37,478 nt of DNA from Chloroflexota bacterium (GTDB taxonomy: Bacteria > Chloroflexota > Anaerolineae > B4-G1 > SLSP01), in the NCBI GenBank assembly GCA_022707705.1, contig JAKJAC010000001.1, positions 43,356 through 80,833 on the forward strand. Direction: 5' to 3'. The notes under the pieces were generated by a model that saw only the letters and a program-made list of their open reading frames with translations, was not told the DNA's origin and did no database searches. A program made the position numbers and the translations under genes. Every line of letters begins with the position of its first letter. Within the stretch, counting starts at the first letter, position 1. Below, piece by piece: positions 5,094 through 34,625 of the stretch.

Positions 5094-6752
5094 TTACTGC
5101 GCAGCAACTCCCGCAGCGACAAAAGCTGCATTGACGATGGCGCGAGCTTCCTCCTGAATCTGGCGCAGATGCTCCGCTCCCCGGAAACTCTCGGCGTAAA
5201 TCTTGTATACATCCTCGGTGCCCGAGGGGCGTGCGGCGAACCATCCCTGAGCTGTGACGACTTTCAAACCCCCGATGGCGGCGTTGTTCCCAGGTGCGCG
5301 GGTGAGTTTGGCAATGATGGGATCGCCAGCGAGGGTTTCTGCCTGTACCAGTTCGGGTGAGAGGTCTTTGAGCACGGCGCGCTGGGGGGCAGCGGCGGGC
5401 GCATCAATCCGTTCGTAGCTGGGGCTGCCGAAAAGCACTTCGAGATCTTGATAATGTTTTCCAGGGTCTTTGCCCGTGATTGCCGTAATCTCGGCTGAGA
5501 GCAGATTGAGAATCATACCGTCCTTGTCCGTCGTCCAAACTGTGCCATCTCGACGCAAGAACGAGGCGCCGGCACTCTCCTCGCCGCCGAAGCCGAAGGA
5601 GCCGTCCACCAGACCCTCGACGAACCATTTGAAACCTACGGGCGTTTCGCTGAGCCGGCGTCCCAGGTGTGCGGCGACCCGGTCAATCATGGAGCTGGAG
5701 ACCAGAGTCTTGCCGACGGCAGCATCCGCGCGCCAACCAGGGCGATGCTGGAACAGGTAATGGATGGCAACCGCGAGGTAATGATTAGGGTTCATCAGCC
5801 CTACACTGGGCGTGACAATGCCGTGTCGGTCATAATCGGGGTCGTTGCCGAAAGCGATATCGAAGCGGTCCTTTAGCCCGATTAGGCTTGCCATGGCATA
5901 GGGCGAGGAGCAATCCATGCGAATCTTGCCGTCCCAGTCAATGGTCATAAAAGCAAACGTGGGATCCACATAGGGGTTGACGATTTCCATATTGAGGTGG
6001 TAGGTCTCGGCGATGCGAGGCCAGAAGGCAATCCCCGATCCCCCCATAGGATCCACGCCGATTTTCAGCCCGGCAGCGGTGATGGCATCCATATCCACGA
6101 CGTGCCGCAGGTCTTCCACATACGGGGTGACATAATCGTATAGATGTGTCGTCTCCGCCTTGAGCGCGCGTTCAAAGGGGATGCGTCGTACCGCGCGCAA
6201 CCCATCCGCGATGATGGCGTTGGCGCGTGCTTGAATGACACTTGTGATCTCCGGGTCTGCGGGACCGCCCGTGGGCGGATTGTATTTGAAACCTCCATCT
6301 GTAGGGGGATTGTGCGAGGGTGTGATGACTACACCATCCGCCGAGATGCCCGTGTGCGAGCGGTTGAAACTGAGGATGGCATGCGAGATAACCGGTGTGG
6401 GGGTGTAACCCATGCCTTCCTGGAGCATAATTTCGACGCCGTTGGCGGCAAAGACCTCGACTGCAGTTACCAGAGCCGGCTCTGAGAGGGCGTGCGTATC
6501 CATGCCGATGAAGAGAGGCCCGGTGATGCCGTGCGCTTGCCGGTATTCGACGATAGCCTGGCTGATAGCCAGCACGTGATCTTCATTGAAGCTGCGCTTG
6601 AGCGAGACCCCGCGATGTCCCGATGTGCCAAAGGCGACTCGCTCCGATGGCTGCGCTGGATCAGGGTGGTAGGCGTAGTATCCCGCTACCAAACGGGGAA
6701 TGTTCACCAGCATCTCTCGGGGCGCTGGTTTTCCTGCTAATGGGTGCACCAT
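5094..6752 (-). CDS. pgm: Phosphoglucomutase (alpha-D-glucose-phosphate specific)
   Basis: This 552-residue enzyme interconverts glucose 1-phosphate and glucose 6-phosphate, linking glycogen and sugar-nucleotide metabolism to glycolysis in the cytoplasm. The phosphoserine loop TPSHNP places the catalytic Ser at residue 146, the magnesium loop is DPDYDRHG, the sugar-recognition loop is GEESAGAS, and the C-terminal phosphate-binding part is [15 protein letters not shown]. Length and the N-terminal pattern ([20 protein letters not shown]) match the bacterial Pgm type rather than ManB/GlmM enzymes. The ATG has GGAG nine bases upstream. The gene ahead of it on the same strand is 71 bases away, and a promoter before that gene could serve both. 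Confidence 0.96.
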
Positions 6753-6823
6753 GACTGTGTTCTCCTTTCCAACTCTATGGTCTGATTTGATGGTTCGTGG
6801 AGCCGCGGCGCGATGTATTAGGT

Positions 6824-11144: not shown

Positions 11145-13544
11145 ATGGAAGATATCAAAGCGCTCGTTCAACAGATGTCCTTGGAAGAAAAGGCTTCTCT
11201 CTGTTCTGGATTGAATTTTTGGTATTTGAAGGGCATCGAAAGGCTGGGCATTCGGTCAATCATGGTCACGGATGGTCCCCATGGGCTACGCAAACAAGCG
11301 GGCGCCGCGGACCACGTGGGGCTGAATGAGAGCGTGCCTGCTACTTGCTTCCCGACCGCTTCGGCGCTGGCGGCGACCTGGAATCGTGACCTGGTTTACC
11401 AGGTGGGGGTCGCGTTAGGCGAGGAATGCCGTCAGGAGAAGGTCGCCGTGATTCTCGGTCCGGGCGCGAACATCAAGCGCTCGCCGCTCTGCGGTCGCAA
11501 CTTCGAGTATTTCTCCGAGGATCCCTACCTGACCGGCGAAATCGCCAAAAGCCACATCAAGGGCGTGCAGAGCCAGGGCGTTGGCACGTCCATCAAACAC
11601 TATGCCGCTAACAACCAGGAAACGCGCCGCATGACGACCGATTCCATCGTGGATGAACGTGCTCTGCGAGAGATTTACCTGGCGGGCTTTGAGATTGCCG
11701 TCAGAGAAGCTCAGCCCTGGACGGTGATGTGTTCCTATAATCGCGTCAATGGCACCTATGCCAGCGATAACCAGATTTTGATGCGTAACATTTTGAAAGA
11801 AGAATGGGGGCATCAGGGGCTGGTCGTTACCGATTGGGGCGCCATGAACGAGCGCGCGGTGGCGTTGAAGGCGGGCGTTGAACTAGAGATGCCTGGCACG
11901 CCCAGTGGCAACGATGCCAGTATTGTCGCTGCGGTTCGGGCGGGCCAACTCGACGAAGCTGTGTTGGATGGCGCTGTCGAACGCATCCTGACCCTGATTC
12001 AGAGGGCTGAAGCGTCCCTGACGCAGGATTTTGCCTATGACTCGCAGGCGCATCATGCTTTGGCTCGGCGTGTGGCGGGCGAAGGCGCCGTGCTGCTCAA
12101 GAACGAAGGTGGGCTCCTGCCCCTGCCGGTGGGCGCGAAGATTGCCTTGATCGGGGGTTTCGCCAAAATGCCACGTTATCAGGGCGCGGGAAGTTCATTG
12201 ATGAACCCTACCCGCCTCGATAATCTCTATGAGGAGCTGGCGAAACTGATTGGCGAAACGAATTTGACCTACGCCCCGGGTTACACTGAAAAGGGCGAGG
12301 TCGCTGATGAAGCCCTGATCCAGGAAGCGCTTGACGTCGCAGGAAAAGCCGAATTGGTGGTAGTTTGCGCCGGGTTGACCGATATGCACGAGATTGAAGG
12401 GCTTGACCGCCAACACCTGCGGCTTCCTGCCGGACACGCGGCGTTGATTCAGCGGTTGGCTGCGGCGCATCGAAAAGTGGTAGTGGTGTTGAGCAATGGT
12501 TCCCCGGTTGAAATGCCCTGGTTGGGTGATGTGCCTGCTATCCTCGAGGGCTATCTCGGCGGGCAGGCAGGCGCCGGCGCCATCGCCGATATCCTGACCG
12601 GCAGGGTCAACCCTAGCGGCAAACTGGCAGAAACTTTCCCTCTCCAGCTCGAGGATACGCCTGCTCAACCGTATCCCGGTGGACCTGCCACTGTGGAATA
12701 CCGTGAGAGCCTCTACGTCGGCTACCGCTGGTACGATACCGCCAAAGTCGAGGTGCTATTCCCCTTTGGTTACGGTTTGAGCTACACCACCTTTGCCTAT
12801 AGCGATTTGGTCGTGAAGCGGGATGACGCTATCGTGGCCGTTACTTTCAAGGTTAAGAACACGGGCGCAGTTTTCGGAAAAGAGATAGCCCAGCTCTACG
12901 TGCGCGATGTGCAGTCCACCGTTTTCCGTCCTGATAAGGAGCTGAAAGGCTTTGCGAAGGTTGAACTGCAACCCGGTCAGGAGACGGAAGTGACTCTCAC
13001 CCTTGGTCGCCGCGCCTTTGGTTATTATGATGTGGGCAATCGGGATTGGGTGGTCGAAGCCGGCGATTTCGAGATTCTGGTGGGGGCTTCCTCCCGCGAC
13101 ATCCGGTTGAGCGCGCTCTTGCACATCGCGAAAGGGAGTGGAACGGTCTCGCCGGTGGATAAGGGCAAGCTTGCTTCCTATTACAATCCGTCTAAAGACC
13201 GCCGTTTTGGCAAGGCGGAATTCGAATCCCTGTTGGGGCGTCCTCTTCCCGCGGATGCCCTGCCGCAAAAAGGCAGCTATGACCTCAATACACCCCTTTC
13301 TGAAATGAGCGGCTCATTCATCGGCCGGCAGCTCTACAAGCTGTTGAGCAAACAGATGCGCAAGATGGTCGAGGGCAAAGAAGACACCCCTACCGGCATG
13401 TTGATGCTCTCCATGGTGAAGGAGATGCCATTGCGCACTATTCTGATGATGGGGGGCTCCCTCAACCGGCGGAAGCTGGAAGCGCTGTTGTTGATCATCA
13501 ATGGGCATGTCCTCAAGGGCTTGGGGGCTTTAATCAGAAGTTGA
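11145..13544 (+). CDS. Glycoside hydrolase family 3 beta-glucosidase-type enzyme
   Basis: This 799-residue enzyme hydrolyses terminal beta-linked sugars. The GH3 N-terminal barrel covers about residues 1-290 with MVTDGPHGLR, the substrate-binding KHYAANN, and the nucleophile Asp230 in VVTDWGA. The GH3 C-terminal alpha/beta domain follows (AVLLKNEGGLLPLP, LVVVCAGLTD, PFGYGLSYTTF), then a fibronectin-III-like domain (residues about 560-660: QLYVRDVQST, ELKGFAKVEL). A further region of about 115 residues after this (ending RKLEALLLIINGHVLKG) is helical and Met-rich and is found in some GH3 enzymes. No signal peptide is seen, so it probably acts in the cytoplasm on imported oligosaccharides. ATG 11145 is preceded by AAGGAG. 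Confidence 0.93.
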   Translation: MEDIKALVQQMSLEEKASLCSGLNFWYLKGIERLGIRSIMVTDGPHGLRKQAGAADHVGLNESVPATCFPTASALAATWNRDLVYQVGVALGEECRQEKVAVILGPGANIKRSPLCGRNFEYFSEDPYLTGEIAKSHIKGVQSQGVGTSIKHYAANNQETRRMTTDSIVDERALREIYLAGFEIAVREAQPWTVMCSYNRVNGTYASDNQILMRNILKEEWGHQGLVVTDWGAMNERAVALKAGVELEMPGTPSGNDASIVAAVRAGQLDEAVLDGAVERILTLIQRAEASLTQDFAYDSQAHHALARRVAGEGAVLLKNEGGLLPLPVGAKIALIGGFAKMPRYQGAGSSLMNPTRLDNLYEELAKLIGETNLTYAPGYTEKGEVADEALIQEALDVAGKAELVVVCAGLTDMHEIEGLDRQHLRLPAGHAALIQRLAAAHRKVVVVLSNGSPVEMPWLGDVPAILEGYLGGQAGAGAIADILTGRVNPSGKLAETFPLQLEDTPAQPYPGGPATVEYRESLYVGYRWYDTAKVEVLFPFGYGLSYTTFAYSDLVVKRDDAIVAVTFKVKNTGAVFGKEIAQLYVRDVQSTVFRPDKELKGFAKVELQPGQETEVTLTLGRRAFGYYDVGNRDWVVEAGDFEILVGASSRDIRLSALLHIAKGSGTVSPVDKGKLASYYNPSKDRRFGKAEFESLLGRPLPADALPQKGSYDLNTPLSEMSGSFIGRQLYKLLSKQMRKMVEGKEDTPTGMLMLSMVKEMPLRTILMMGGSLNRRKLEALLLIINGHVLKGLGALIRS

Positions 13545-13640
13545 CCCTGGAAGAGGACGAGGATTCGCTAGAATGGTGTGTGCTGACCTACCGTAAAATC
13601 CCTAGACTTAAGTAAAAACCCTATCAAGCGAGGTGTGCTT

Positions 13641-15464
13641 ATGACAAAGTTACCGTCCGATGCTCCCATCCTGACGCAGGATGGCCTCACCTTTCGCGAC
13701 CTGAACAAGAACGGTCGCCTGGATGTTTACGAGGACCCACGCCGTCCGATTGAGGAGCGCGTGGAGGACCTTCTGCAGCAGATGACGCTGGAAGAGAAAG
13801 TCGGATTGATGTTTCACAATGTCATTCCGGTCGGGATGGATGGTGAACTATTTCATGGGATGCACTGGATGTGGGAATACTCTACCACTCACAATGTGCT
13901 CGATTTGAAGATGAGCCACTACAATGTGCATGCTCTGCCCGAACCACGGTTGGCAGTTGCCTGGTACAACAAACTCCAGAAGCTGGCGGAGCGCACACGT
14001 CTTGGAATTCCCGTCACGCTCTCCTCAGATCCGCGCCACGGCTACAATCAGATGGCTGGAGCATCGGAGGTGACGGATGCCTTCTCGCGTTGGCCCGAGC
14101 CTATCGGTTTGGGGGCAACTGACGACCCGGAGCTGGTGCAGGAATTCGGCGATATCGCCCGCCAGGAGTACCGTGCGGTGGGCATCTCAGTCGCGTTGCA
14201 CCCGATGGCGGATCTGGCGACTGAGCCGCGCTGGGCGCGTATCGAGGGCACGTTTGGCGAGGATGCGGAGCTCTCATCGCGGATGGTCGGGGCTTATATC
14301 CGCGGTTTCCAGGGCGCGGAGATTGGTCCCTCCTCCGTGATTTGTATGACTAAGCATTTCCCGGGCGGCGGTCCGCAGAAAGATGGACACGACCCGCATT
14401 TCTCCTACGGCAAGGAACAGGTCTATCCCGGTGCGAACTTCGACTATCACCTGATTCCCTTCGAAGCGGCTTTCCGTGCTGGCACCGGACAGATCATGCC
14501 CTACTACGGTCAACCGATTGGCGTGCCGGGGATTGACGAGGTGGGCTTTAGCTACAATAAGCCGGTGATCACGGGCTTGCTCCGTGGAAAATATGGCTTC
14601 GATGGCGTGGTCTGCACGGACTGGAGTCTCATCACCGCGAGAGTGCATGGCGACAAGGTGTTTATGGAGGCGCGCGCCTGGGGAGTGGAGCACCTCTCGA
14701 ACCTTGAACGGGCAAAGCGACTCCTGGATGCTGGGGTGGATCAATTCGGTGGGGAAGAGTGTCCCGGGTTGCTGATTGAACTGGTTCAGACCGGGCAGGT
14801 CAGCGAGACGCGCATTGATACATCGGTGCGGCGACTGCTGCGAGACAAGTTCCGTCTGGGCTTGTTCGATCATCCTTATCTCGATCCCGAGGTATCCGCA
14901 GAAATTGTGGGTAACCCTGCCTTCCGAGAAGCGGGTGCGCGTGCGCAGCGCAAGTCGCTGGTGTTGCTCAAACGCGAGGCGCTGCCCCTTGCCGGGCGCC
15001 CCAAGGTCTACATTGAAGGCTATCAACCTGAATCTCTGGCGCCTTATGCGGATGTGGTAGCGTCCCCTGAGGTGGCGGATTTTGCGTTACTGCGCCTGGT
15101 TGCGCCCTACCAGACGATTGGCGAAGGTTTTTCTGCCATTTTCCACTACGACGACCTGGACTTCAAAAGTCCCGAGAAAGAACGGTTGCTGCACTTGATG
15201 GTGCAGGTCCCCACCATCGTCTCCATTCACCTTGACCGCCCTGCCGTGATCCCTGAGATAGCCGAAGCCTGCAAAGGCTTGATCGGTAGCTTTGGAGCGG
15301 AAGATGCGGCGGTACTGGATGTCATCTTCGGTCGCTGGAATCCGACCGGCAAATTGCCTTTCGAATTACCTTGCTCGATGGAAGCGGTGAAGAACCAGAA
15401 ATCGGATGTTCCGTACGATAGCGGCGCTCCGCTGTTTCCTTTCGGTTTTGGGCTGAGCTATTGA
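13641..15464 (+). CDS. Glycoside hydrolase family 3 protein, short form
   Basis: This 607-residue enzyme is a second GH3 hydrolase, only distantly like its neighbour. A 12-residue EF-hand-like loop (D20-LNKNGRLDVY-E31) opens the protein. The barrel shows LSSDPRHGYN, CMTKHFPGGGPQKDGHDPH and the nucleophile Asp327 in VVCTDWS. The C-terminal domain ends at PLFPFGFGLSY and there is no fibronectin-III domain, as in a subgroup of beta-xylosidase or exo-glucanase-like GH3 proteins, so I read it as complete rather than truncated. ATG 13641 is chosen over GTG 13635 because GAGG lies seven bases upstream. No signal peptide is seen. A strong terminator follows. Substrate specificity cannot be read from sequence. 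Confidence 0.9.
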   Translation: MTKLPSDAPILTQDGLTFRDLNKNGRLDVYEDPRRPIEERVEDLLQQMTLEEKVGLMFHNVIPVGMDGELFHGMHWMWEYSTTHNVLDLKMSHYNVHALPEPRLAVAWYNKLQKLAERTRLGIPVTLSSDPRHGYNQMAGASEVTDAFSRWPEPIGLGATDDPELVQEFGDIARQEYRAVGISVALHPMADLATEPRWARIEGTFGEDAELSSRMVGAYIRGFQGAEIGPSSVICMTKHFPGGGPQKDGHDPHFSYGKEQVYPGANFDYHLIPFEAAFRAGTGQIMPYYGQPIGVPGIDEVGFSYNKPVITGLLRGKYGFDGVVCTDWSLITARVHGDKVFMEARAWGVEHLSNLERAKRLLDAGVDQFGGEECPGLLIELVQTGQVSETRIDTSVRRLLRDKFRLGLFDHPYLDPEVSAEIVGNPAFREAGARAQRKSLVLLKREALPLAGRPKVYIEGYQPESLAPYADVVASPEVADFALLRLVAPYQTIGEGFSAIFHYDDLDFKSPEKERLLHLMVQVPTIVSIHLDRPAVIPEIAEACKGLIGSFGAEDAAVLDVIFGRWNPTGKLPFELPCSMEAVKNQKSDVPYDSGAPLFPFGFGLSY

Positions 15465-23520: not shown

Positions 23521-24312
23521 CTACCCCTCGGCGTTCTGGGCTGCAGGGCTTGCAGCCAGGACAATCCCATTGCGTCGAGCGGCTTCTTCTGCCCGCACGC
23601 TTTTCACGTCTTTACCGAATTCGATAATCAGGCTGTGATGCACCACCCGGTCAATCGCCGCCGCAGTCGTGAGGGGATTTTTGAAGATTTGATCCCACTC
23701 GGAGAAGACCAGGTTGGAGGTAATGACGACACTCCGGCGTTCGTAACGCTCAGCCAGAAAAGTGAACAACACTTCCATCTCTTCACGGCTTTGTTGTACA
23801 TAACCCAAGTCGTCGAGAATAACCACCTGGAAGGTATCGAGGTGGCGCAGTTCGCGTTCAAGTTCATGGTCACGCTTGGCACGTAACAAGGCACCGACTA
23901 ACTTGTAGGTTGGGGTAAAGAGGACTGTGAAGTCGTGCTCAATCCAGGCATAGCCCAACGCGGCCGCGAGATGGGTCTTGCCAGTTCCGGGCAAACCGAA
24001 GAGCAAAACATTATCGCCCCGCGGGATGAATTCACCGGTGGCAAGTTGCGCAAGTTGACGGCATACGCGAAGTGGCAGGCGCTGTTGCTCAAAGGTCTCC
24101 AGGGTCTTGCCTGGGGGCAGATGCGCAGCTTTCAGCAGGCGGGTGATACGGCGCGTTTGGCGCCCGTCGAGTTCTTGTTCCAGGAGGTGTGTCAGGAACG
24201 TTTCTAGAGACCAGGCCTCGCGCTGGGCGGTCTCCAGGGTGGCGCCCACGACCGCGGCGACTGTGGGTAGGCGCAATTGATGACAGTGGGCGCGGATCGT
24301 GTCAAGCGCCAT
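23521..24312 (-). CDS. istB: IS21-family helper ATPase IstB
   Basis: This 263-residue AAA+ ATPase of the DnaC/IstB class helps the IstA transposase choose and stabilise target DNA. The Walker A is LLFGLPGTGKTHLA near residues 103-115, the Walker B is VVILDDLGY, and sensor motif SVVITSNLVFSEW and an arginine-bearing C-terminal part follow. Length is normal. The ATG lies inside the end of istA with an 11-base overlap, the standard coupled arrangement. Confidence 0.95.
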   Translation of the reverse strand: MALDTIRAHCHQLRLPTVAAVVGATLETAQREAWSLETFLTHLLEQELDGRQTRRITRLLKAAHLPPGKTLETFEQQRLPLRVCRQLAQLATGEFIPRGDNVLLFGLPGTGKTHLAAALGYAWIEHDFTVLFTPTYKLVGALLRAKRDHELERELRHLDTFQVVILDDLGYVQQSREEMEVLFTFLAERYERRSVVITSNLVFSEWDQIFKNPLTTAAAIDRVVHHSLIIEFGKDVKSVRAEEAARRNGIVLAASPAAQNAEG

Positions 24313-25804
24313 GCGCCACCTCCACTAGCAGTTGATCGTAGGGTTGCAGATCGACAGCCAGAGGTGCCAGGGTCGGGGTCTCAGGCCGAGGGGGCTGGAC
24401 CAGTTCCGCTACCGTGGTGTCGTCCCAGTGTGCTGGGGTTTCTAGTAGACAGGTTAGAGCTACGGCGACATCCGCTTCCAAGTGTTGGGCGGACAGGTGG
24501 AGGATGCGCAGGTAGATCAAATCTGCCTTGCGCGGGGCATAAACCTGCTGCAGATACTCCCAGGCCCGCTGGAAAACCAACGTGGGGAATAGAGCGTCAC
24601 GGTAGCGATAGTCGCGAAAGCCGCCGGGCTTGCGCAGCAGACTGCCGATCACGTGGCGATAGTTAATGCGGTACTGGCGGGTACCGATCAGGCGTGGCAC
24701 TTGGAGCACACAGCGCGACTGGTAGTAAACCTCCAGATGCCACTCGTGAATATGCACATTCACATACTGCCCAATCAGGCTGGTGGGCACGGAGTAAGCG
24801 TTGTTCTGCACGCGGATCAGGCTGGTGCGGGCGACACGCACGCGCTGGTGAGTATGGGTAACTAGCTGGGTGGCGGGTAACGGACGCATGACCGCTAGTT
24901 CCTCAGCCAGCCGGGCTTGGCGGGCCTGGTTACGCTGCTGTAGGACGCGCTGCACAAAAGCTTCGTAGTCGGCAAGGGTGGCGAAATCACGGCTGCCCCG
25001 CAAGAGCAACTGCTGCTCCAGGGCGCGTTTCAGTCCGCCATTGCTGCTCTCCACGTCACCGTTTTCCTGGGGCGAGCGCCGGTGCGTCGTACGCGGTTGC
25101 ATCCCGTAATGGTCGAGCAACTGCAGATAGCCTTCGGTGTAGGCCCGCTCGCCATTTCCGGTCTCCGCTTCTGCTCCGGGACGGCAGGTTGCAGCACTCC
25201 CGTTGTCGGTCTGGTGAGACTGCGGCACGGCACCTAACTTCTGCACTGTACTCTGTACACCATTACGGAGGGCGTTCAACGATTCGGATTGTGCTATTAC
25301 ACCCCACTCCCAGTTCGAGTAAGACAATACCGAGTGGATCAGTAAGTGCGGCAGCGCAACGCCTTGGATCGTAATGCCGAGCTCCGTCAGCCACACACCG
25401 TCCGTCTGCAACACTTCACCCGGACGGTGCACTTGTTCCAATACAGCGACTTGTTCCTGGTTCAGCGCACGCCACTGCGCCACCCGGCGTTGCAAGGTGC
25501 GGAGTTGGCCCTCCTCGTACTTGCCGGGATGCTGCTCACACAGCCAGGTGAACAGCGTTTTGGCTTCTAGATGTGGAGCGGCTTGCAGCATAGCTTCCAA
25601 CGTGGGCCAGTCTTCGACAAAGACATCCTGGCGGGTGCGATATTGGCGTGGCTGTACCAATTCGCTAGGCAACTGCTCGAGGCGCTCGTACTTGGCTACC
25701 GTCTTACGACTGCGTACGTTGGCGCTGACCGCGGCCTGTTCTTGTGTTCGTCCTTTCTTTCGTTCGCGCATCATAATCCTCACTTGAGCGTCGGTTGTCG
25801 TCAT
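24302..25804 (-). CDS. istA: IS21-family transposase IstA
   Basis: This 500-residue DDE transposase carries out cutting and joining of the element ends. An N-terminal helix-turn-helix is seen around residues 10-45 (MMRERKKGRTQEQAAVSANV). The catalytic acidic residues are visible in LQTDGVWL, SHQTDNGSA and SPQENGDVESSNG. A C-terminal beta-rich part (RVQNNAYSVPTSLIGQYV) is typical of IstA. No frameshift is seen. It overlaps istB by 11 bases. Confidence 0.95.
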   Translation of the reverse strand: MTTTDAQVRIMMRERKKGRTQEQAAVSANVRSRKTVAKYERLEQLPSELVQPRQYRTRQDVFVEDWPTLEAMLQAAPHLEAKTLFTWLCEQHPGKYEEGQLRTLQRRVAQWRALNQEQVAVLEQVHRPGEVLQTDGVWLTELGITIQGVALPHLLIHSVLSYSNWEWGVIAQSESLNALRNGVQSTVQKLGAVPQSHQTDNGSAATCRPGAEAETGNGERAYTEGYLQLLDHYGMQPRTTHRRSPQENGDVESSNGGLKRALEQQLLLRGSRDFATLADYEAFVQRVLQQRNQARQARLAEELAVMRPLPATQLVTHTHQRVRVARTSLIRVQNNAYSVPTSLIGQYVNVHIHEWHLEVYYQSRCVLQVPRLIGTRQYRINYRHVIGSLLRKPGGFRDYRYRDALFPTLVFQRAWEYLQQVYAPRKADLIYLRILHLSAQHLEADVAVALTCLLETPAHWDDTTVAELVQPPRPETPTLAPLAVDLQPYDQLLVEVAHGA

Positions 25805-28691: not shown

Positions 28692-31418
28692 TCAAGTGTT
28701 CCGCGAAGCCAAGAGCTGCTGCACCTGCCCAACGGTAAGCAAGCCGGCGCCGGGCAAGAGCTGGAGCATCTGCGGCGTAAAAGTCTCGCGCAACCTCAAC
28801 ACTGCTGCCGGCGCCCCTTCTGCGGCAATGACACCCGCCTCAAGCAACGCCACACGGTCGGCAAACTGCGCCACCCACTCCACATCGTGCGTCACCAGCA
28901 ACACGGAGCGCCCTCTGGCACACCAGCTTTGCAGGAGCTCCCCCAATGCCACCTTGAGCGCCATATCCAACCCGCGGGTGGGTTCATCCAGTAATAGCAC
29001 TTCCGGCTCGACCACGGCAATTGCTCCCAGCGCCACCCGCTGGCGTTCTCCCACCGACAGGTCGCGCGGATAAGCCTCAGCATGAGCTGCCAGGCCCAAA
29101 TGCGCCAGCAGCGGCGACACGCGCCCATCTAACATGCCGTGATTGCGCAAGGTCACCTCAAGTTCGGCGCGGACCGTCTCCGAGAAGAGCAACAAATCCG
29201 GCTCCTGTGGGAGATAGCCGATGCGGCGACAGCGCGCGGGCAAATCCCAAGAGGTGATATCCTCCTCTCGCAACCGAATGCGCCCTTCTTGCAAAGGTAA
29301 CGCGCCCACCACAGTCTTGAGCAACGTCGTCTTCCCTGCCCCATTGGGTCCAATCAACGCCAGGAGTTCGCCCGCGCCCAATGTGAGCGTGACGCCGCGA
29401 AGAACCGGTTGCCCATTGTAGGCAGCCTGCAAATCCGCAAGGTGCAACAACGGGGCGGGCGTCGAGACCGGCTCCGAGCGCGCCGCAATGATGGCTTGCA
29501 GAGCTGGCGCCGATTCGCCGAAGCGCACCCGCGCCTCAGCCACACTCAACGCCGGCGGCGTCCATCCCATCACCGCGCTCAGCGCCACCACCGGCGGCGG
29601 TGAAGGCAAGCGTGGCGCGGCGCCGCGCGGCGTCTCATGCCACAAGCCGCCATCACCCGGCAGGAAAATCACATCCGTTGCCAGCGGCAACACACGCTCC
29701 AGGCGATGCTCTGTCATCACAATCGTCATCCCCTCTGCGTGTAGCTGCTGCAAGAACACTAGCAGGTCTTCAGCCCCTTGTGGGTCGAGCTGGCTCAGCG
29801 GCTCATCCAGCAACAATATGGGTGGGCGCAATGCCAGCGCTGCCGCCAGGGCTACCCGCTGCCGCTCGCCCCCGGAGAGTTGCGCCAACGGGCATTCCCG
29901 CAGCTGCGCTACCCCCACGCGAGCCAACGTCTCCTCAAGCCGGGCGGTCAGCGCCTCCGGCGTAACGGATTGCCCCGCGCCCCCGCGGAGTTGATTTTCC
30001 AAAGAGAAAGCGACCTCATCTTCGACCCGGTCCGCTACAAAACCCGCCTCAGGGCTTTGGACAACGAAACCGACCTGCCGCGCCATGATACGCGGACCGG
30101 CACGCAGCGCATCCGCTTCACCCACCCATACGTGCCCGCCGATACGCCCGCCGGTCGCCTGTGGGACTAAGCCGTTGATGCAACGCAACAAGGTGCTTTT
30201 GCCCACGCCCGAGGGACCGGTCACCAACACGAATGCGCCCGGCTCAATGACACAGTGCACATTTCGCAACAACGGCGCTGCTGTTCCAGGATAGGCGAAG
30301 GTGACTCTCTCAAAAACGATACGGGGCGGTTGCGCTGCTCTGGTCACCGGCGCGGGCGCTAACGCACGCGGCTGTGGCAGCAAAGCGGCGCGCCCCACCC
30401 GCGTGAAAGCCGGCGCCAGCAGCAGCAATAGCGCGAGAATTGCCCAAGCCGAAAGCGACGGCGCGGTTGGATACGGGTAAACTTCGTAGGCAAGCGCCTG
30501 CGGCTGAGTGAACAGTAACATACCCCACAAGAGGAATGCCGCTACTGTTCCTCCTAACATCAGCCATGCACCCGGCGTCAACGCAGCACGCCGGGAAGCC
30601 CGGGGGTCACTACCAGACGTCATAGCGCCAGTACGCCCAATCCCCCAACCCACTGCCAGAACACCGGTGAGAAGCAAGCCACTGTTGATCCAGGAGGACC
30701 ACCCCAACAAAGCGCCGCCGCTTCCCAACAGTAACGCCAACAACGCCACGACAAATAGCGCTGACGTGCGCCGGGATTCCCTGCCGCGCCAGGAGGTGAA
30801 ACCACGCGCCTCCATCGCTTCTGCCAGCTGCAAAGCCCGCTCCAGTGCGGTGATGAGCAAAGGCAATAGCAGGGGTAAGAGGTCGCGCAAACCTTTAACA
30901 CGATGCCCGCGGACTGCCTGCGCCTGCCGAATCTCCTCCAGGGTTTCACGCCCCTGGGGCAGGAACGTCAGCGCTACCGAGAGCACCAGACCCGCCTCGT
31001 ATAGCGCGGGCGGCGTCAGGCGAATCAAATCGCGCGGTGAGAGTTGCACCATCAGAAAGCCAAAAGTGCTGAGGATCAACGCTAATGCCAAACCGTTCAG
31101 AGCGCCGTACAGCGCCGCTTCTAGCGTATACGGACCGCCGATGAGGAACCATGTCCCCGGCAAAGCGAATAGGACAGTATCGCCCACATGCACGGTGACG
31201 AAGTTCCACACCGTCCCCAGCAGCAGCACCGTGAGGAAGAGGCGCAGCGAGAGTCGCTGCGCGTGCGCCTCCACGGTCGCCCACAGCACGATGCACGCCA
31301 ACACCAGATACAGAGGGTTGCGGGTAGTGTAGCTCACCACGAGGAAAGCCAGCGCCCAAAGCAACCACGGGACCGGAGCAGGTTTCGTCGAAGTTCGTGA
31401 TTTTGAATACTCTAGCAT
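28692..31418 (-). CDS. Fused ECF transporter energising module: EcfT plus two EcfA ATPases
   Basis: This 908-residue protein combines parts that are usually three genes. Residues about 1-265 are the EcfT membrane scaffold with two Ala-Arg-Gly-type coupling motifs (QAQAVRG, 165-171, and AEAMEARG, 199-206). About 284-339 adds two more hydrophobic segments not typical of EcfT. The first ATPase has Walker A GPSGVGKST at 401-409, signature LSGGERQR at 514-521 and LLLDEP; the second has Walker A GPNGAGKTT near 690, signature LSVGERQR and LLLDEPTRGLD. Together these energise uptake through a substrate-binding S component, which is absent here. The riboswitch upstream points to cobalamin. ATG 31418 is chosen because the protein then starts right before the membrane part; no strong ribosome binding site is seen, so coupling to the gene 25 bases upstream is likely. 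Confidence 0.92.
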   Translation of the reverse strand: MLEYSKSRTSTKPAPVPWLLWALAFLVVSYTTRNPLYLVLACIVLWATVEAHAQRLSLRLFLTVLLLGTVWNFVTVHVGDTVLFALPGTWFLIGGPYTLEAALYGALNGLALALILSTFGFLMVQLSPRDLIRLTPPALYEAGLVLSVALTFLPQGRETLEEIRQAQAVRGHRVKGLRDLLPLLLPLLITALERALQLAEAMEARGFTSWRGRESRRTSALFVVALLALLLGSGGALLGWSSWINSGLLLTGVLAVGWGIGRTGAMTSGSDPRASRRAALTPGAWLMLGGTVAAFLLWGMLLFTQPQALAYEVYPYPTAPSLSAWAILALLLLLAPAFTRVGRAALLPQPRALAPAPVTRAAQPPRIVFERVTFAYPGTAAPLLRNVHCVIEPGAFVLVTGPSGVGKSTLLRCINGLVPQATGGRIGGHVWVGEADALRAGPRIMARQVGFVVQSPEAGFVADRVEDEVAFSLENQLRGGAGQSVTPEALTARLEETLARVGVAQLRECPLAQLSGGERQRVALAAALALRPPILLLDEPLSQLDPQGAEDLLVFLQQLHAEGMTIVMTEHRLERVLPLATDVIFLPGDGGLWHETPRGAAPRLPSPPPVVALSAVMGWTPPALSVAEARVRFGESAPALQAIIAARSEPVSTPAPLLHLADLQAAYNGQPVLRGVTLTLGAGELLALIGPNGAGKTTLLKTVVGALPLQEGRIRLREEDITSWDLPARCRRIGYLPQEPDLLLFSETVRAELEVTLRNHGMLDGRVSPLLAHLGLAAHAEAYPRDLSVGERQRVALGAIAVVEPEVLLLDEPTRGLDMALKVALGELLQSWCARGRSVLLVTHDVEWVAQFADRVALLEAGVIAAEGAPAAVLRLRETFTPQMLQLLPGAGLLTVGQVQQLLASRNT

Positions 31419-31443
31419 GTGGTGCCAATCATTGGCGCACGAT

Positions 31444-32175
31444 TCACCGGCGGCGCGCGCGCTGGACGAAGATGATTGCCAGGAGCGCAAGCAGGAGCAA
31501 GCCAAACAGCCCGTAGCCGGTGAAAGCTGTGGCTGTGGACTTCGCCGCGAGCGGAGCAGGTGTTACCGCAGGCTCAGGCAATGACGGCGTTTCCAAAGGT
31601 GACGTTGCCAGCGCTGGAGAGAGTGTCACAGAGGGCGTGGGTGTAGTAGTTGCGGCGGGCGCACAGATTTCCGCAACGCTGAGGTCTGGGGGGGATACCG
31701 TACCATCCCCCCACACCCAGGCATCTACAGCACCGGCAACGATGGACCAGCTATCCGCACCGCGCGCAGAATAGCTCCATGCGCCATCGGCTTCACGGTG
31801 GAAATATGACCAATACTGGCAGGGCGCAGTTTTGCACCGGCAGAAACAATCCGTTGGAGGACAACCGAGCCCGTCAATCCCACAAATCGCGGTACCGCCG
31901 CCGCCCGAACGCACCGTGAGCGCAGCTCCTGCACGTTCCAGCAGGGAAAGCCCGGTGAGCTCCGGTTCGGTGAAGGTCACGCAAACCGTGGTTACGGCGC
32001 CTCCCTCGCCCACGATCATTAATCCCGCCTGTTGCGAGTCAGGCTGTTGGGCTGAAACCATACCTGCTGCTACCAGAAGCCAAAGCAGCACAGCGCCTGA
32101 TATCCACCGCCCGCGATGTCCCAAGACCATTCTCATCGCTCGCCGAAGTCGTTCCGCTGCAACACGCCCACTCAT
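31444..32175 (-). CDS. Secreted DUF4430 (transcobalamin/intrinsic factor beta-domain-like) protein with membrane anchor
   Basis: This 243-residue protein has a signal peptide (hydrophobic stretch at about 24-42, cleavage near VSA), a DUF4430-type domain at about 52-158, a Pro/Thr/Ser linker, and a C-terminal transmembrane helix followed by RARRR. DUF4430 is the fold of the C-terminal beta domain of transcobalamin and intrinsic factor. The region includes CVTFTEPELTGLSLLERAG, a Cys-rich insert (Cys98, 105, 110, 112, 114, 119) and YWSYFHREADGAWSYS with WVWGDG. ATG 32175 overlaps the stop of the gene before it as ATGA, a sign of translational coupling. I infer that it sits outside the membrane beside the barrel protein as half of a B12 binder. 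Confidence 0.85.
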   Translation of the reverse strand: MSGRVAAERLRRAMRMVLGHRGRWISGAVLLWLLVAAGMVSAQQPDSQQAGLMIVGEGGAVTTVCVTFTEPELTGLSLLERAGAALTVRSGGGGTAICGIDGLGCPPTDCFCRCKTAPCQYWSYFHREADGAWSYSARGADSWSIVAGAVDAWVWGDGTVSPPDLSVAEICAPAATTTPTPSVTLSPALATSPLETPSLPEPAVTPAPLAAKSTATAFTGYGLFGLLLLALLAIIFVQRARRR

Positions 32176-33278
32176 GCCTGGTGCCGGCGCAGGAGCAAGC
32201 CGGTGCCCAACAGCGCTGCGCCCGCCCACAACAGCAAGACTCCCGGAGCGTGACCGCCCGATGCGGGCAACACCGGCACAGGGGCTAGCGTCACCGCCGG
32301 CGCCGGCGTCGCAACTGGCGCAGTCGCCGTAGCCGCAAACAACGGTGTTTTCGGAGCAGAGAAGTCGAGCAGCGTCATTCCGCTCAATGCCTGCACCGCT
32401 TGAGCCGTTGCCAGGACGTTGGCGCCCGGCATCGCCAGCTGCCAGTTATAGGCGCCACTTTCCGCATCCCACAACGCCAGCAGCGCATTCACCGGCGAAA
32501 CGCCCTCCGGCGCCCAATTTGCCAGATCCTCACCCAGTGCTACCAGTGTCTGCAACACCACCGCCGTGGAGTTAGCGTCCGTATCGGTCCCATAGGGCGA
32601 AGGGTTCTGCCAGGGAAATCCACCATCCGGGTTTTGTACGCTTTTGAAGTAAGCGATTGCCTTCTTTGCCGCAGGTTCCTCACCCGCCGCAAGCAAAGCC
32701 TGAACCGCCAGGGAGGTCGTGTTGGTATCCGCGACTTCATCGCCGCCGAGCATAGCCCAACCGCCCGCCTCTTGCTGTTCGTTAATGAGTAACTCGACAG
32801 CAGCTGCGGGCAAAGACTCGCCAGCATTGTGCAGGGCGAGCAACGCATAAGCGTGCGCGTAGAGCGAGTCGCCGAAGCGTCCCGTAGCCTTATCCTGCGT
32901 GCCAAGCAATGCCGCAACCAAATTTTTGCCGCCAATGGCGCGTGGGTCTGCCGCCAACGCCTTTGCCATCATCACGGCGCGGCTAAGCCCCGCAGCGTCG
33001 CTTAGCGTTCCGGAAGCTACCTGCGTCTCCAGATATGCCAGCGGTGAAGTGTCCGCATCTGGATTCACACCTGCCGCCGCAAAAGCCAGGACTGCCTCAG
33101 TCGTCGCCCCAAGATCAGAGCCGTCACTGAAACCGCTGGTAAAGCCACCATCCGCCTGCTGGTTGGTCGACAGCCACTCCAGCGCGCGGTCCACTTGTGG
33201 AATGCCTTCAGCACGCGCCGGTACGCTCCAGCTCAATATCAATGCCAGCACCATCGTCAAAACTGCCAACTTACGCAT
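32172..33278 (-). CDS. Secreted alpha/alpha-barrel (prenyltransferase-repeat) protein, intrinsic-factor-like, LPASG-anchored
   Basis: This 368-residue protein has a signal peptide (KLAVLTMVLALILSWSVPARA), six helical-pair repeats of prenyltransferase/squalene-oxidase type in residues about 28-310 (QQADGGFTSG, LLGTQDKATGRFGD, EQQEAGGWAML, VQNPDGGFPW and others), a Pro/Ala linker and a C-terminal sorting-like signal: LPASGG near 337, a hydrophobic helix and RRHQA. The secreted alpha/alpha barrel is the fold of the N-terminal half of intrinsic factor and transcobalamin, and its partner beta domain is the next gene. ATG 33278 has AGGAG six bases upstream. It is the first gene behind a cobalamin riboswitch. 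A role in capturing B12 at the cell surface is inference; a plain squalene-cyclase-like enzyme is unlikely because the catalytic Asp-rich motif is missing. Confidence 0.87.
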   Translation of the reverse strand: MRKLAVLTMVLALILSWSVPARAEGIPQVDRALEWLSTNQQADGGFTSGFSDGSDLGATTEAVLAFAAAGVNPDADTSPLAYLETQVASGTLSDAAGLSRAVMMAKALAADPRAIGGKNLVAALLGTQDKATGRFGDSLYAHAYALLALHNAGESLPAAAVELLINEQQEAGGWAMLGGDEVADTNTTSLAVQALLAAGEEPAAKKAIAYFKSVQNPDGGFPWQNPSPYGTDTDANSTAVVLQTLVALGEDLANWAPEGVSPVNALLALWDAESGAYNWQLAMPGANVLATAQAVQALSGMTLLDFSAPKTPLFAATATAPVATPAPAVTLAPVPVLPASGGHAPGVLLLWAGAALLGTGLLLRRHQA

Positions 33279-33346
33279 CACAAGCTCCTGAGAATATAGT
33301 TAAAGAAACCACAAACTGGCAAGACTATCCACGGATTATGCCCAAC

Positions 33347-33385
33347 AAAAAACCCCTCTCCGCCGAAAAGGGCGCCAGAGAGGGG
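33347..33385 (-). terminator. Riboswitch-associated intrinsic terminator
   Basis: On the minus strand CCCCTCTC pairs with GAGAGGGG, with an inner CGCC/GGCG stem, followed by six T (33352-33347). It lies between the cobalamin aptamer and the first gene, so it is the likely transcription-control switch. Confidence 0.88.
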
Positions 33386-33434
33386 TCTTGCATTACCTCA
33401 CTGTGCCGAACCTTTCCGCGAAGGTTGTCGCACG

Positions 33435-33562
33435 GATCTGGGCGGAGTATCGGACTTCCCACAAAGCGCATGGCTTTGAGGGCTACCGTTGCGGGACAGT
33501 GCCGGACTCTGACCGGACTTCCTCGCTTTAAGCCCCATTGCAAGAACAGAGGCACCCAAATC
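33435..33562 (-). ncRNA. Cobalamin riboswitch aptamer
   Basis: The minus strand carries the conserved cobalamin aptamer core: GGAAGTCCGGTCAGAGTCC continuing into GGCACTGTCCCGCAACGGTA, close to the family consensus (CCGGTG...ATCCGGC...GGTCCCGC(C/A)AC). The 3' part has AAGTCCGATACTCCGCC, the AGYC...ACC.GCC side. The ends GATTTGGG (33562-33555) and CCCAGATC (33442-33435) pair as an 8-bp closing stem with one G-U. A further hairpin (AACCTT/AAGGTT near 33427-33410) and the terminator at 33347-33385 follow. The aptamer is short, closer to the compact class. It should repress the barrel/DUF4430/ECF operon when cobalamin is abundant. Confidence 0.9.
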
Positions 33563-33641
33563 ACGATTAGCGATTGTTAAAGAGGCAAGGATAACGATCA
33601 GAAATGATCAAATAGACCGTTATTCCAGAGCCACAGGAATA

Positions 33642-34625
33642 TCATACCACGGGATTGACAAAAGTCGAACGTGGCGTGTACTCAGCGAGGGTTGCTTCAA
33701 GTGCCACACGCCCATAACGCCACCGCACCCAGAGCACAATCAGCAGCGAACCGGCAAGCATGGCGAAAATGCCCAACAACCCCGCCTCCGGTCCAAAGGC
33801 GCCCCCGGTCCACAGAACTGGTCCACCCTGCTCGATGACCCAAAAGGAGGTTGCCGCCGCGCCGCCACTCACCGGAAAGCCAAAAACCGTCCCCTGAAAG
33901 AAATTCCAGGTGATGTGCAAGCCAATCGGCAATGCCATGCTGCCACTCAACACATAAGCCAGGCCCAGGAAGATACCGGCAAACACAATGTTGAGGGTGC
34001 TGATAAGACTGGCGTTGGGATTGAGTGCATGCGCCAATCCGAAAACCGCCGACGTCAGGAACCAGCTGAGCAGCAGCGCGCCCCGATTGCTCAAACCCGG
34101 TAGGCGCAATCCCTCAGCCAGGTTGCGCAGGAAATAACCACGGAAGAGCAATTCCTCATAGATGCCTACCGCAAGGTAGAGCAAGATGCTGAAGAACACG
34201 GCTACCGGGAAATTGCCGCCGAAGGAATCGGCGCGCAATGTCCCCGTGACGGTGATCCAGCCCGCTGCCTTTTCCACCAGGAAAATCGCCGCCATCAACA
34301 CTGCCCCAAGCGTCAAGCCTGCGCCGAGGTCAAGCACCCACGCCCAATTCAGGCGCATCCCGAAATCAGAAAACCGCCGTCGGTCCAGGAAATACCCGGC
34401 AAGCCCAACGCTCAGCAGCGTCGCCGGCAACATTGCCAGATTCGCCAAACGGAATGTCGCTTCCTCGATCTGAGGCTCCAGATTGCCGAAGACCATGCCG
34501 GGCAGCAAGAAGACCGCACTCAGGCAGCTGGAGAACGCGACAAGTAACAGAATCTGACCCACCAAACGCCACAGCGTCCTCAGGCGGTGTTGTTGTGGAT
34601 TCCAAAACAGTTCTTGTAGCTTCAT
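33642..34625 (-). CDS. CPBP family intramembrane metalloprotease
   Basis: This 327-residue membrane protein has about eight hydrophobic segments and the three CPBP/Rce1 motifs: EELLFRGYFLRNL near residues 158-170 (Glu-Glu-x-x-x-Arg), FGLAHALNP near 197-205 and HITWNF near 237-242. These residues bind metal and cut substrates within the membrane. Bacterial members act in peptide or protein maturation and immunity; the substrate is unknown here. Its ATG overlaps the stop of the gene upstream as ATGA, so it is coupled to the repeat membrane protein. The cobalamin riboswitch unit begins just downstream of its stop codon and appears independent. Confidence 0.9.
   Translation of the reverse strand: MKLQELFWNPQQHRLRTLWRLVGQILLLVAFSSCLSAVFLLPGMVFGNLEPQIEEATFRLANLAMLPATLLSVGLAGYFLDRRRFSDFGMRLNWAWVLDLGAGLTLGAVLMAAIFLVEKAAGWITVTGTLRADSFGGNFPVAVFFSILLYLAVGIYEELLFRGYFLRNLAEGLRLPGLSNRGALLLSWFLTSAVFGLAHALNPNASLISTLNIVFAGIFLGLAYVLSGSMALPIGLHITWNFFQGTVFGFPVSGGAAATSFWVIEQGGPVLWTGGAFGPEAGLLGIFAMLAGSLLIVLWVRWRYGRVALEATLAEYTPRSTFVNPVV

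Follow-up and report, generated by a model that had tools for sequence, protein, structure and literature searches.

An operon behind a cobalamin riboswitch in a Chloroflexota genome, predicted to encode a two-chain, intrinsic-factor-like corrinoid binder and an ECF module

Organization of the operon and its riboswitch

The window (the whole stretch of 37,478 nucleotides that was analysed) belongs to a 4.8-Mb MAG of the phylum Chloroflexota that is 78% complete. It contains three minus-strand genes behind one cobalamin riboswitch, encoding a barrel protein, a beta protein and an EcfT-EcfA-EcfA fusion. This tightly packed arrangement, described in the earlier note, is confirmed by riboswitch, domain and overlap readings. 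The features are as follows.

33424..33574, minus strand: cobalamin riboswitch aptamer RF00174 (44.2 bits, gathering cut-off 31.5; full-length, model positions 1-189 of 189)
33352..33387, minus strand: intrinsic-terminator-like hairpin with a T-run (core stem 33373-33352; the fold shows longer paired arms)
32172..33278, minus strand: exported alpha/alpha-toroid (barrel) protein, 368 aa (Pfam SQHop_cyclase/Prenyltrans toroid)
31444..32175, minus strand: beta protein, exported and of the transcobalamin beta-domain type, with a C-terminal TM anchor (its gene overlaps that of the barrel at ATGA)
31651..32040, minus strand: modelled beta domain, 130 aa with a Cys-rich loop (pLDDT 93.5)
28692..31418 (about), minus strand: EcfT-EcfA-EcfA single-chain energy-coupling module (CbiQ/EcfT, then two ABC ATPases, ABC_tran)

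The aptamer is assigned to RF00174 by a full-length covariance-model match above the gathering cut-off. It begins 12 nt beyond the range given in the earlier note (28692-33562), and no other cobalamin riboswitch was found in the 4.8-Mb, 78% complete host MAG. The terminator-like hairpin (MFE -28.7 kcal/mol, z = -3.05) is, from its position, the probable expression platform of the riboswitch.

The gene order is kept in ~40 genome loci and, among named MAGs, in 80 loci (the two sets overlap in part), and because of this conservation the arrangement is more than chance. In the genome survey for co-occurring barrel, beta protein, ECF and riboswitch, an RF00174 or RF01482 riboswitch lies upstream on the operon strand in 37 of 40 relative loci, at a median of 265 nt ahead of the first domain of the operon. 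Of the three loci lacking it, two start at a contig end, inside the first gene. The earlier note had held that riboswitches for another ligand regularly lying ahead of homologous operons would count against its reading; the cobalamin riboswitches found in these loci favour it instead. Relatives of the operon were not found in the plasmid collection or in the viral contigs searched.

The barrel and beta proteins

The barrel gene starts with ATG (an alternative GTG lies 3 nt upstream). Its product has a signal-like N-terminus, one toroid of ~280 aa, a Pro/Ala/Thr linker, and an LPASGG motif followed by a hydrophobic segment and an RRHQA tail, predicted to form a sortase-like anchor. The Pfam toroid families on this protein agree with the exported alpha/alpha barrel seen earlier, and 12 helices, taken as a six-hairpin toroid, are present in the structure model of a fused relative (L040). 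Among the barrel's sequence and whole-model matches, including those from Foldseek, squalene-hopene cyclases and related terpene cyclases rank first and transcobalamin and intrinsic factor lower, so B12 is not identified by the barrel on its own. These leading matches would fit a terpene-cyclase-like enzyme that lies in a B12-regulated operon by happenstance. However, the alpha/alpha toroid is common to cyclases and B12 carriers, and the barrel is a single toroid with a signal and an anchor, outside the cell, whose relatives are fused to transcobalamin-type beta domains. A cyclase is therefore extremely improbable, and this reading is rejected.

The beta gene overlaps the barrel gene through the ATGA stop/start recorded in the earlier note, read directly at 32175-32172. 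The element order of the beta-domain model, E-E-H-[E41-46,E49-55]-E-E-E, is that of a beta-grasp fold with a hairpin inserted after the helix. Its top 12 Foldseek matches in the PDB are the beta domains of transcobalamin, haptocorrin and intrinsic factor together with R. gnavus 3u7z, and the nearest folds have TM values of 0.55-0.60 by query length. In animals, intrinsic factor and transcobalamin consist of an alpha/alpha barrel and a DUF4430-type beta domain that clamp B12 between them. The DUF4430 label previously given to the beta protein holds as fold and as remote homology (hhalign of its profile against six DUF4430 sequences; E-value: 1.6e-5, probability 79%; controls with unrelated profiles: 0.2-0.4), but not as membership of the Pfam family: DUF4430 (PF14478) has no match in the protein at E<10, in its own genome or in 60 genomes of the class. 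Alignment to a single DUF4430 sequence was uninformative, and PDB sequence searches with the protein and its profile gave nothing relevant. Both the beta-grasp fold with a post-helix hairpin and the sequence homology that characterize the SLBB transcobalamin-like clade are found in the beta protein. The genome scan was run with alignment A5, as alignment A1 lacked a sufficiently conserved stretch.

The beta protein also has a Cys-rich insert of the GC-x4-CFC type, with four invariant cysteines in 51 sequences and up to eight in all; in the window its Cys codons lie at about 31884, 31863, 31848, 31842, 31836 and 31821. Alignment with DUF4430 places the insert just past the hairpin through which transcobalamin contacts B12. 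It is conceivable, though quite unlikely, that the insert acts on the bound corrinoid, either through a thiolate that coordinates cobalt or through a redox change that opens the clamp. Such action would explain how a carrier of this kind releases B12 without proteolysis.

In several relatives the two domains form one chain. Beta-barrel fusions are encoded by L021, L022, L023, L038, L039, L040 and others, and the barrel-beta order of the animal carriers occurs once (L151). The L040 protein, whose domain order is the reverse of that in animals, was modelled confidently with both domains together (pTM 0.89). The two genes are almost constantly paired: a barrel is present in 71 of the 80 named-MAG loci, and several of the others are cut at contig ends. 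Repeated fusion in both orders and this pairing argue for a two-sided clamp and against binding of B12 by the beta protein alone (or the barrel alone) with its partner as a scaffold or docking piece. Binding by a single protein would accord with the barrel:beta stoichiometry, which is not 1:1 because in many loci there are two genes for the beta protein and a single chain with as many as three barrels, and with the crystallization of the isolated human transcobalamin beta domain with cyanocobalamin (5np4), but it is considered unlikely.

The ECF module, a CbrT-related S-component and the B12 supply of the host

The third gene (its ATG start at 31418 was picked by eye) encodes CbiQ/EcfT and two ABC_tran ATPase stretches in one chain, as the earlier note had proposed. 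ECF importers are usually described with an S-component as the only substrate binder. An S-component gene was not found in the window, but a homologue is present on another contig of the host genome (G000:C434:17182-17943; 49% identical to one that is encoded in an operon). This gene, which the earlier note overlooked, adjoins the operon in most relatives and is unlinked in the host genus. The relatives' S-component belongs to PF12822 (ECF_trnsprt). The only significant PDB match of its profile is 6fnp_A (ECF-CbrT; E-value: 4.5e-6), followed by FolT-type and similar entries (0.56-1.6), and by homology it is related to CbrT, a B12 S-component that has been characterised. Among 60 genomes, 30 have both the beta protein and the S-component, 6 are beta-positive without a detected S-component, 3 have the S-component without the beta protein and 21 have neither (Fisher p 5e-8, descriptive only, as relatedness is ignored).

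CbiC, a marker of de novo synthesis, was not found in 60 genomes, while the same search was positive in 7 of 14 controls. The host has nine B12-binding domain matches, eight of them above the cut-off, and apparently cannot make vitamin B12.

These results bear on whether the substrate could be cobalt or another metal, taken up by a CbiQ/CbiO-type module with Cys-rich surface proteins. The ECF fusion carries the Pfam label CbiQ and the NCBIfam label cbiO, the beta protein has six to eight conserved cysteines, 3u7z, one of its relatives in the PDB, is described in its deposition as a putative metal-binding protein, and genes for cobalt import, too, can be regulated by cobalamin riboswitches. However, the names CbiQ and CbiO apply to all ECF modules, the S-component belongs to PF12822 and its profile is nearest to CbrT and then FolT, the beta protein has the fold of B12 carriers and, because CbiC is absent, cobalt would be unusable for making corrin de novo along the usual route. 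A cobalt importer is therefore very unlikely and is rejected.

It is possible, though less probable than not, that what the operon takes up is not B12 itself but corrinoid precursors or other cobamides (cobinamide, incomplete corrinoids), by the same mechanics. The riboswitch senses cobalamin and is silent on the imported form. According to the available part of PMC5997447, CbrT transports cobinamide as well as cobalamin, and the animal carriers and BtuF are similarly broad. Such import would be a variation of the corrinoid-scavenging model given below.

Proposed model and relation to known systems

The operon is best explained, with a probability of about 0.8, as a scavenging operon in which a two-chain, surface-anchored, intrinsic-factor-like B12 (corrinoid) binder feeds a CbrT-type ECF importer. 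The beta fold, the fusions, the frequent cobalamin riboswitches, the CbrT-related S-component and the absence of CbiC all support the split binder serving an ECF importer that the earlier note had put forward. The proposed model is as follows. When B12 is scarce, the riboswitch would let transcription of the operon run on. The barrel and beta proteins, both anchored outside the membrane, would close on one corrinoid as the domains of intrinsic factor and transcobalamin do. The pair would then hand the corrinoid to the CbrT-like S-component, which would topple in the membrane and free it into the cell, with the fused ECF module powering this step.

The general idea is not new, because Burroughs et al. 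2007 (PMC1796856, available part) predicted B12 scavenging by toroid, SLBB and CbiO/CbiQ proteins in other bacteria, with low-GC Gram-positives, planctomycetes and euryarchaea as hosts. That part of the paper mentions neither Chloroflexota nor riboswitches, and an experimental test of the prediction was not found in the literature. The SLBB transcobalamin-like clade, as presented there, resembles the present system in its secreted or surface proteins, its toroid and beta-grasp domain with a post-helix hairpin, its CbiO/CbiQ operons and its hosts without B12 synthesis genes. In contrast, the present system mostly has two separate chains, a conserved Cys-rich loop, a domain that Pfam DUF4430 does not recognise, a CbrT-related S-component and, in 37/40 loci, an upstream cobalamin riboswitch. 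New relative to the 2007 prediction are the split chains, the Cys-rich character and the Chloroflexota hosts.

The animal proteins intrinsic factor, transcobalamin and haptocorrin share the alpha/alpha toroid and beta-grasp domain but are one soluble chain, whereas here two anchored chains and a Cys-rich loop are present. Animal carriers free B12 by proteolysis after endocytosis (PMC5997447, available part); here the ligand is presumably handed over to the ECF importer. The same source describes ECF-CbrT of Lactobacillus delbrueckii (6fnp), which likewise has an ECF module and a related S-component, with B12 as the presumed shared substrate. The part available describes no extracellular binder, which is predicted here, and one ECF module common to several S-components, whereas here the T-A-A module lies within the B12-switched operon. 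It also states that S-components bind B12 unaided with nanomolar affinity, so it is not evident why an outside binder would be needed.

Two NCBIfam families of Streptomyces without a functional name are matched as well, SCO2321_fam by the barrel (E-value: 3e-33) and SCO2322_fam weakly by the beta protein (E-value: 2e-4), both far below the curated cut-offs. The SCO2322 model has no match in any control genome. The locus tags of the two are consecutive, which suggests that the genes are adjacent and that Actinobacteria have this barrel/beta pair too. Apart from the 2007 prediction, literature on SCO2322, or joining transcobalamin-like or SLBB proteins with ECF, was not found.

If the model is correct, the coupling of an external two-part binder with a CbrT-type ECF importer would add another strategy of B12 acquisition, one that is apparently common in a single phylum whose members are mostly uncultured. 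The 2007 proposal that animal B12 carriers are of bacterial origin (PMC1796856, available part) becomes testable, because separate chains and fusions in either order are found within this one family. The model would also pose a mechanistic question: how a clamp hands its ligand over rather than holding it until digested.

Organization and conservation of the operon

The operon encodes an exported alpha/alpha-toroid protein (the barrel), an exported protein with a transcobalamin-type beta domain (the beta protein) and an EcfT-EcfA-EcfA fusion. Its features in the window are as follows.

33424-33574, minus strand: cobalamin riboswitch RF00174 (44.2 bits)
~33387-33350, minus strand: GC-rich, terminator-like hairpin with a T-run
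32172-33278, minus strand: barrel gene
31444-32175, minus strand: beta-protein gene, ATGA overlap with the barrel gene
28692-31418, minus strand: EcfT-EcfA-EcfA gene

The riboswitch is the only one for cobalamin detected in this incomplete MAG (4.8 Mb, 77.6% completeness). Immediately upstream of it, on the same strand, is a CAAX-type (Rce1-like) protease gene (33642-34625); the window also carries an IS21-type istB/istA pair (23524-25804) and two adjoining GH3 glycoside hydrolase genes (11145-15464).

Named relatives belong to Anaerolineae/Thermoflexales and other Chloroflexota. The beta protein is present in 57 of 99 genomes searched and, by profile search, in 50 of 201 genomes sampled phylum-wide. 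Gene order is near-constant in 40 fetched loci (barrel, beta, S-component where present, EcfT, EcfA-EcfA), the S-component gene lying between beta and EcfT in some loci and at the operon end in others. Rfam places a cobalamin riboswitch in 37 of these loci, always on the operon strand and a median of 265 nt (maximum 711) from the first downstream operon domain. Loci L031 and L039, which have none, begin within the first gene; none was found in L022 at gathering score. A GTDB scan gave 80 loci, partly overlapping in genomes with the other set and often on contigs that end early, with the barrel in 71, EcfT in 54 and the S-component in 50. L038 carries a tandem riboswitch pair (6307-6767), and in L052 the riboswitch (2134-2284) sits between the beta and S-component genes rather than at the operon start. 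In L027 (5697-8615; a one-contig genome, 77% complete) the beta genes are broken across overlapping frames, probably through sequencing indels or decay.

Barrel and beta protein

The beta protein has no Pfam match, DUF4430 included, and DUF4430 was not found in 60 genomes sampled from the class; NCBIfam gives a weak match to SCO2322. Its AlphaFold2 model (51-row alignment, pLDDT 93.5) has the strand and helix order of the transcobalamin-like clade, defined as a beta-grasp with a hairpin following the helix (PMC1796856). In a Foldseek search of the PDB, ranks 1-12 go to chains of transcobalamin, haptocorrin and intrinsic factor, to the transcobalamin beta domain on its own and to R. gnavus 3u7z. 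Only the first has E < 0.001, but the probability is 1.00 for all twelve and drops to 0.84 for the next match, an unrelated protein. A profile of six true DUF4430 proteins from other Chloroflexota matches the family (E-value: 1.6e-5, probability 79%, 83 columns; unrelated profile pairs: 0.23-0.4). The family is thus a distant relative of DUF4430 without being a member as Pfam defines it. The label "DUF4430 protein" in the earlier note holds as remote homology and fold and fails as Pfam membership. A Cys-rich insert sets the family apart from DUF4430; of its cysteines, four are conserved without exception in the 51 aligned sequences and another four are present in 37-41.

The barrel matches terpene-cyclase and prenyltransferase toroid families, as well as NCBIfam SCO2321. 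Since cyclases and B12 carriers share the toroid fold, it gives by itself no indication of the ligand.

Both domains occur in a single chain, beta before barrel, in L021, L022, L023, L038, L039, L040 and other loci. In L151 (Chloroflexi bacterium 44-23), where S-component and EcfT genes come next, the chain runs barrel then beta, as in the animal B12 carriers. The L040 fusion model (pLDDT 92.4, pTM 0.89) has 12 toroid helices. Cyclases lead its PDB matches; the beta domain of transcobalamin and whole transcobalamin/intrinsic factor chains (TM 0.40-0.45 for the latter) rank lower, at E ~1e-3. These matches are no test of a pocket, because the domain order is reversed and a sequential aligner cannot span both domains. 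Close to the animal layout is a 658-aa chain of another Chloroflexota lineage (L167:820-2793, minus strand), with a toroid and a true Pfam DUF4430. Chains with three tandem barrels (L026, L159, L096, L104, L127) could possibly allow multi-site binding.

The N-terminus of both barrel and beta protein is hydrophobic, and near the C-terminus of each a hydrophobic segment is followed by a basic tail; these features suggest surface anchoring. The barrel's segment is preceded by a sortase-signal-like LPASGG (LPETGG, LPVTGG or LPESGG in relatives). Across the operon family three putative anchor types occur: LPxTG-like tails on single barrels, plain TM anchors on main beta proteins, and PEP-CTERM-like C-termini in second beta-protein genes of L025, L028, L029, L032 and L055 (e.g. 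EIPEPATLLLLGSGLAGLAGYIRRRR).

S-component and probable host need for B12

The relatives' gene between beta and EcfT belongs to PF12822. The window's own genome carries one such S-component gene on another contig, unlinked to the operon (G000:C434:17182-17943; L065:6195-7010). The gene is likewise outside the operon in four genus mates, and no cobalamin riboswitch lies near it. The only significant PDB match of the family profile is 6fnp_A (E-value: 4.5e-6; other S-components at least 0.56), which is the S-component in ECF-CbrT, a B12 transporter that carries both cobalamin and cobinamide (PMC5997447). Among 60 genomes, beta protein and S-component occur together in 30, alone in 6 and 3, respectively, and 21 have neither.

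The de novo corrin synthesis marker CbiC was not found in any of 60 genomes searched (detected in 7 of 14 controls), and the window's own genome has nine B12-binding domain matches, eight above cut-off. For these reasons the host probably uses B12 without making it; with a single marker and a genome 78% complete, this could be in error.

Relation to known systems and proposed model

Burroughs, Balaji, Iyer and Aravind (2007) described bacterial SLBB and toroid proteins in both domain orders, with genes in operons with CbiO/CbiQ in bacteria without B12 synthesis genes, and already suggested that these systems scavenge B12 and that the animal carriers came from bacteria (PMC1796856). The Chloroflexota operon is a variant of the same predicted kind. 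As far as the open-access literature shows, what is new is that the family lies beyond Pfam's reach, that the two domains are mostly on separate chains, that the beta protein has a Cys-rich insert, that the S-component is of CbrT type and that a riboswitch is systematically present. That literature yielded no experimental work on a bacterial pair of this sort.

The proposed model, which goes beyond the established parts, order, folds and conservation of the operon, is as follows. At low B12 the terminator would not form and the operon would be transcribed. Barrel and beta protein would clamp a corrinoid outside the cell, the S-component (unlinked here) would receive it, and the T-A-A module would power import.
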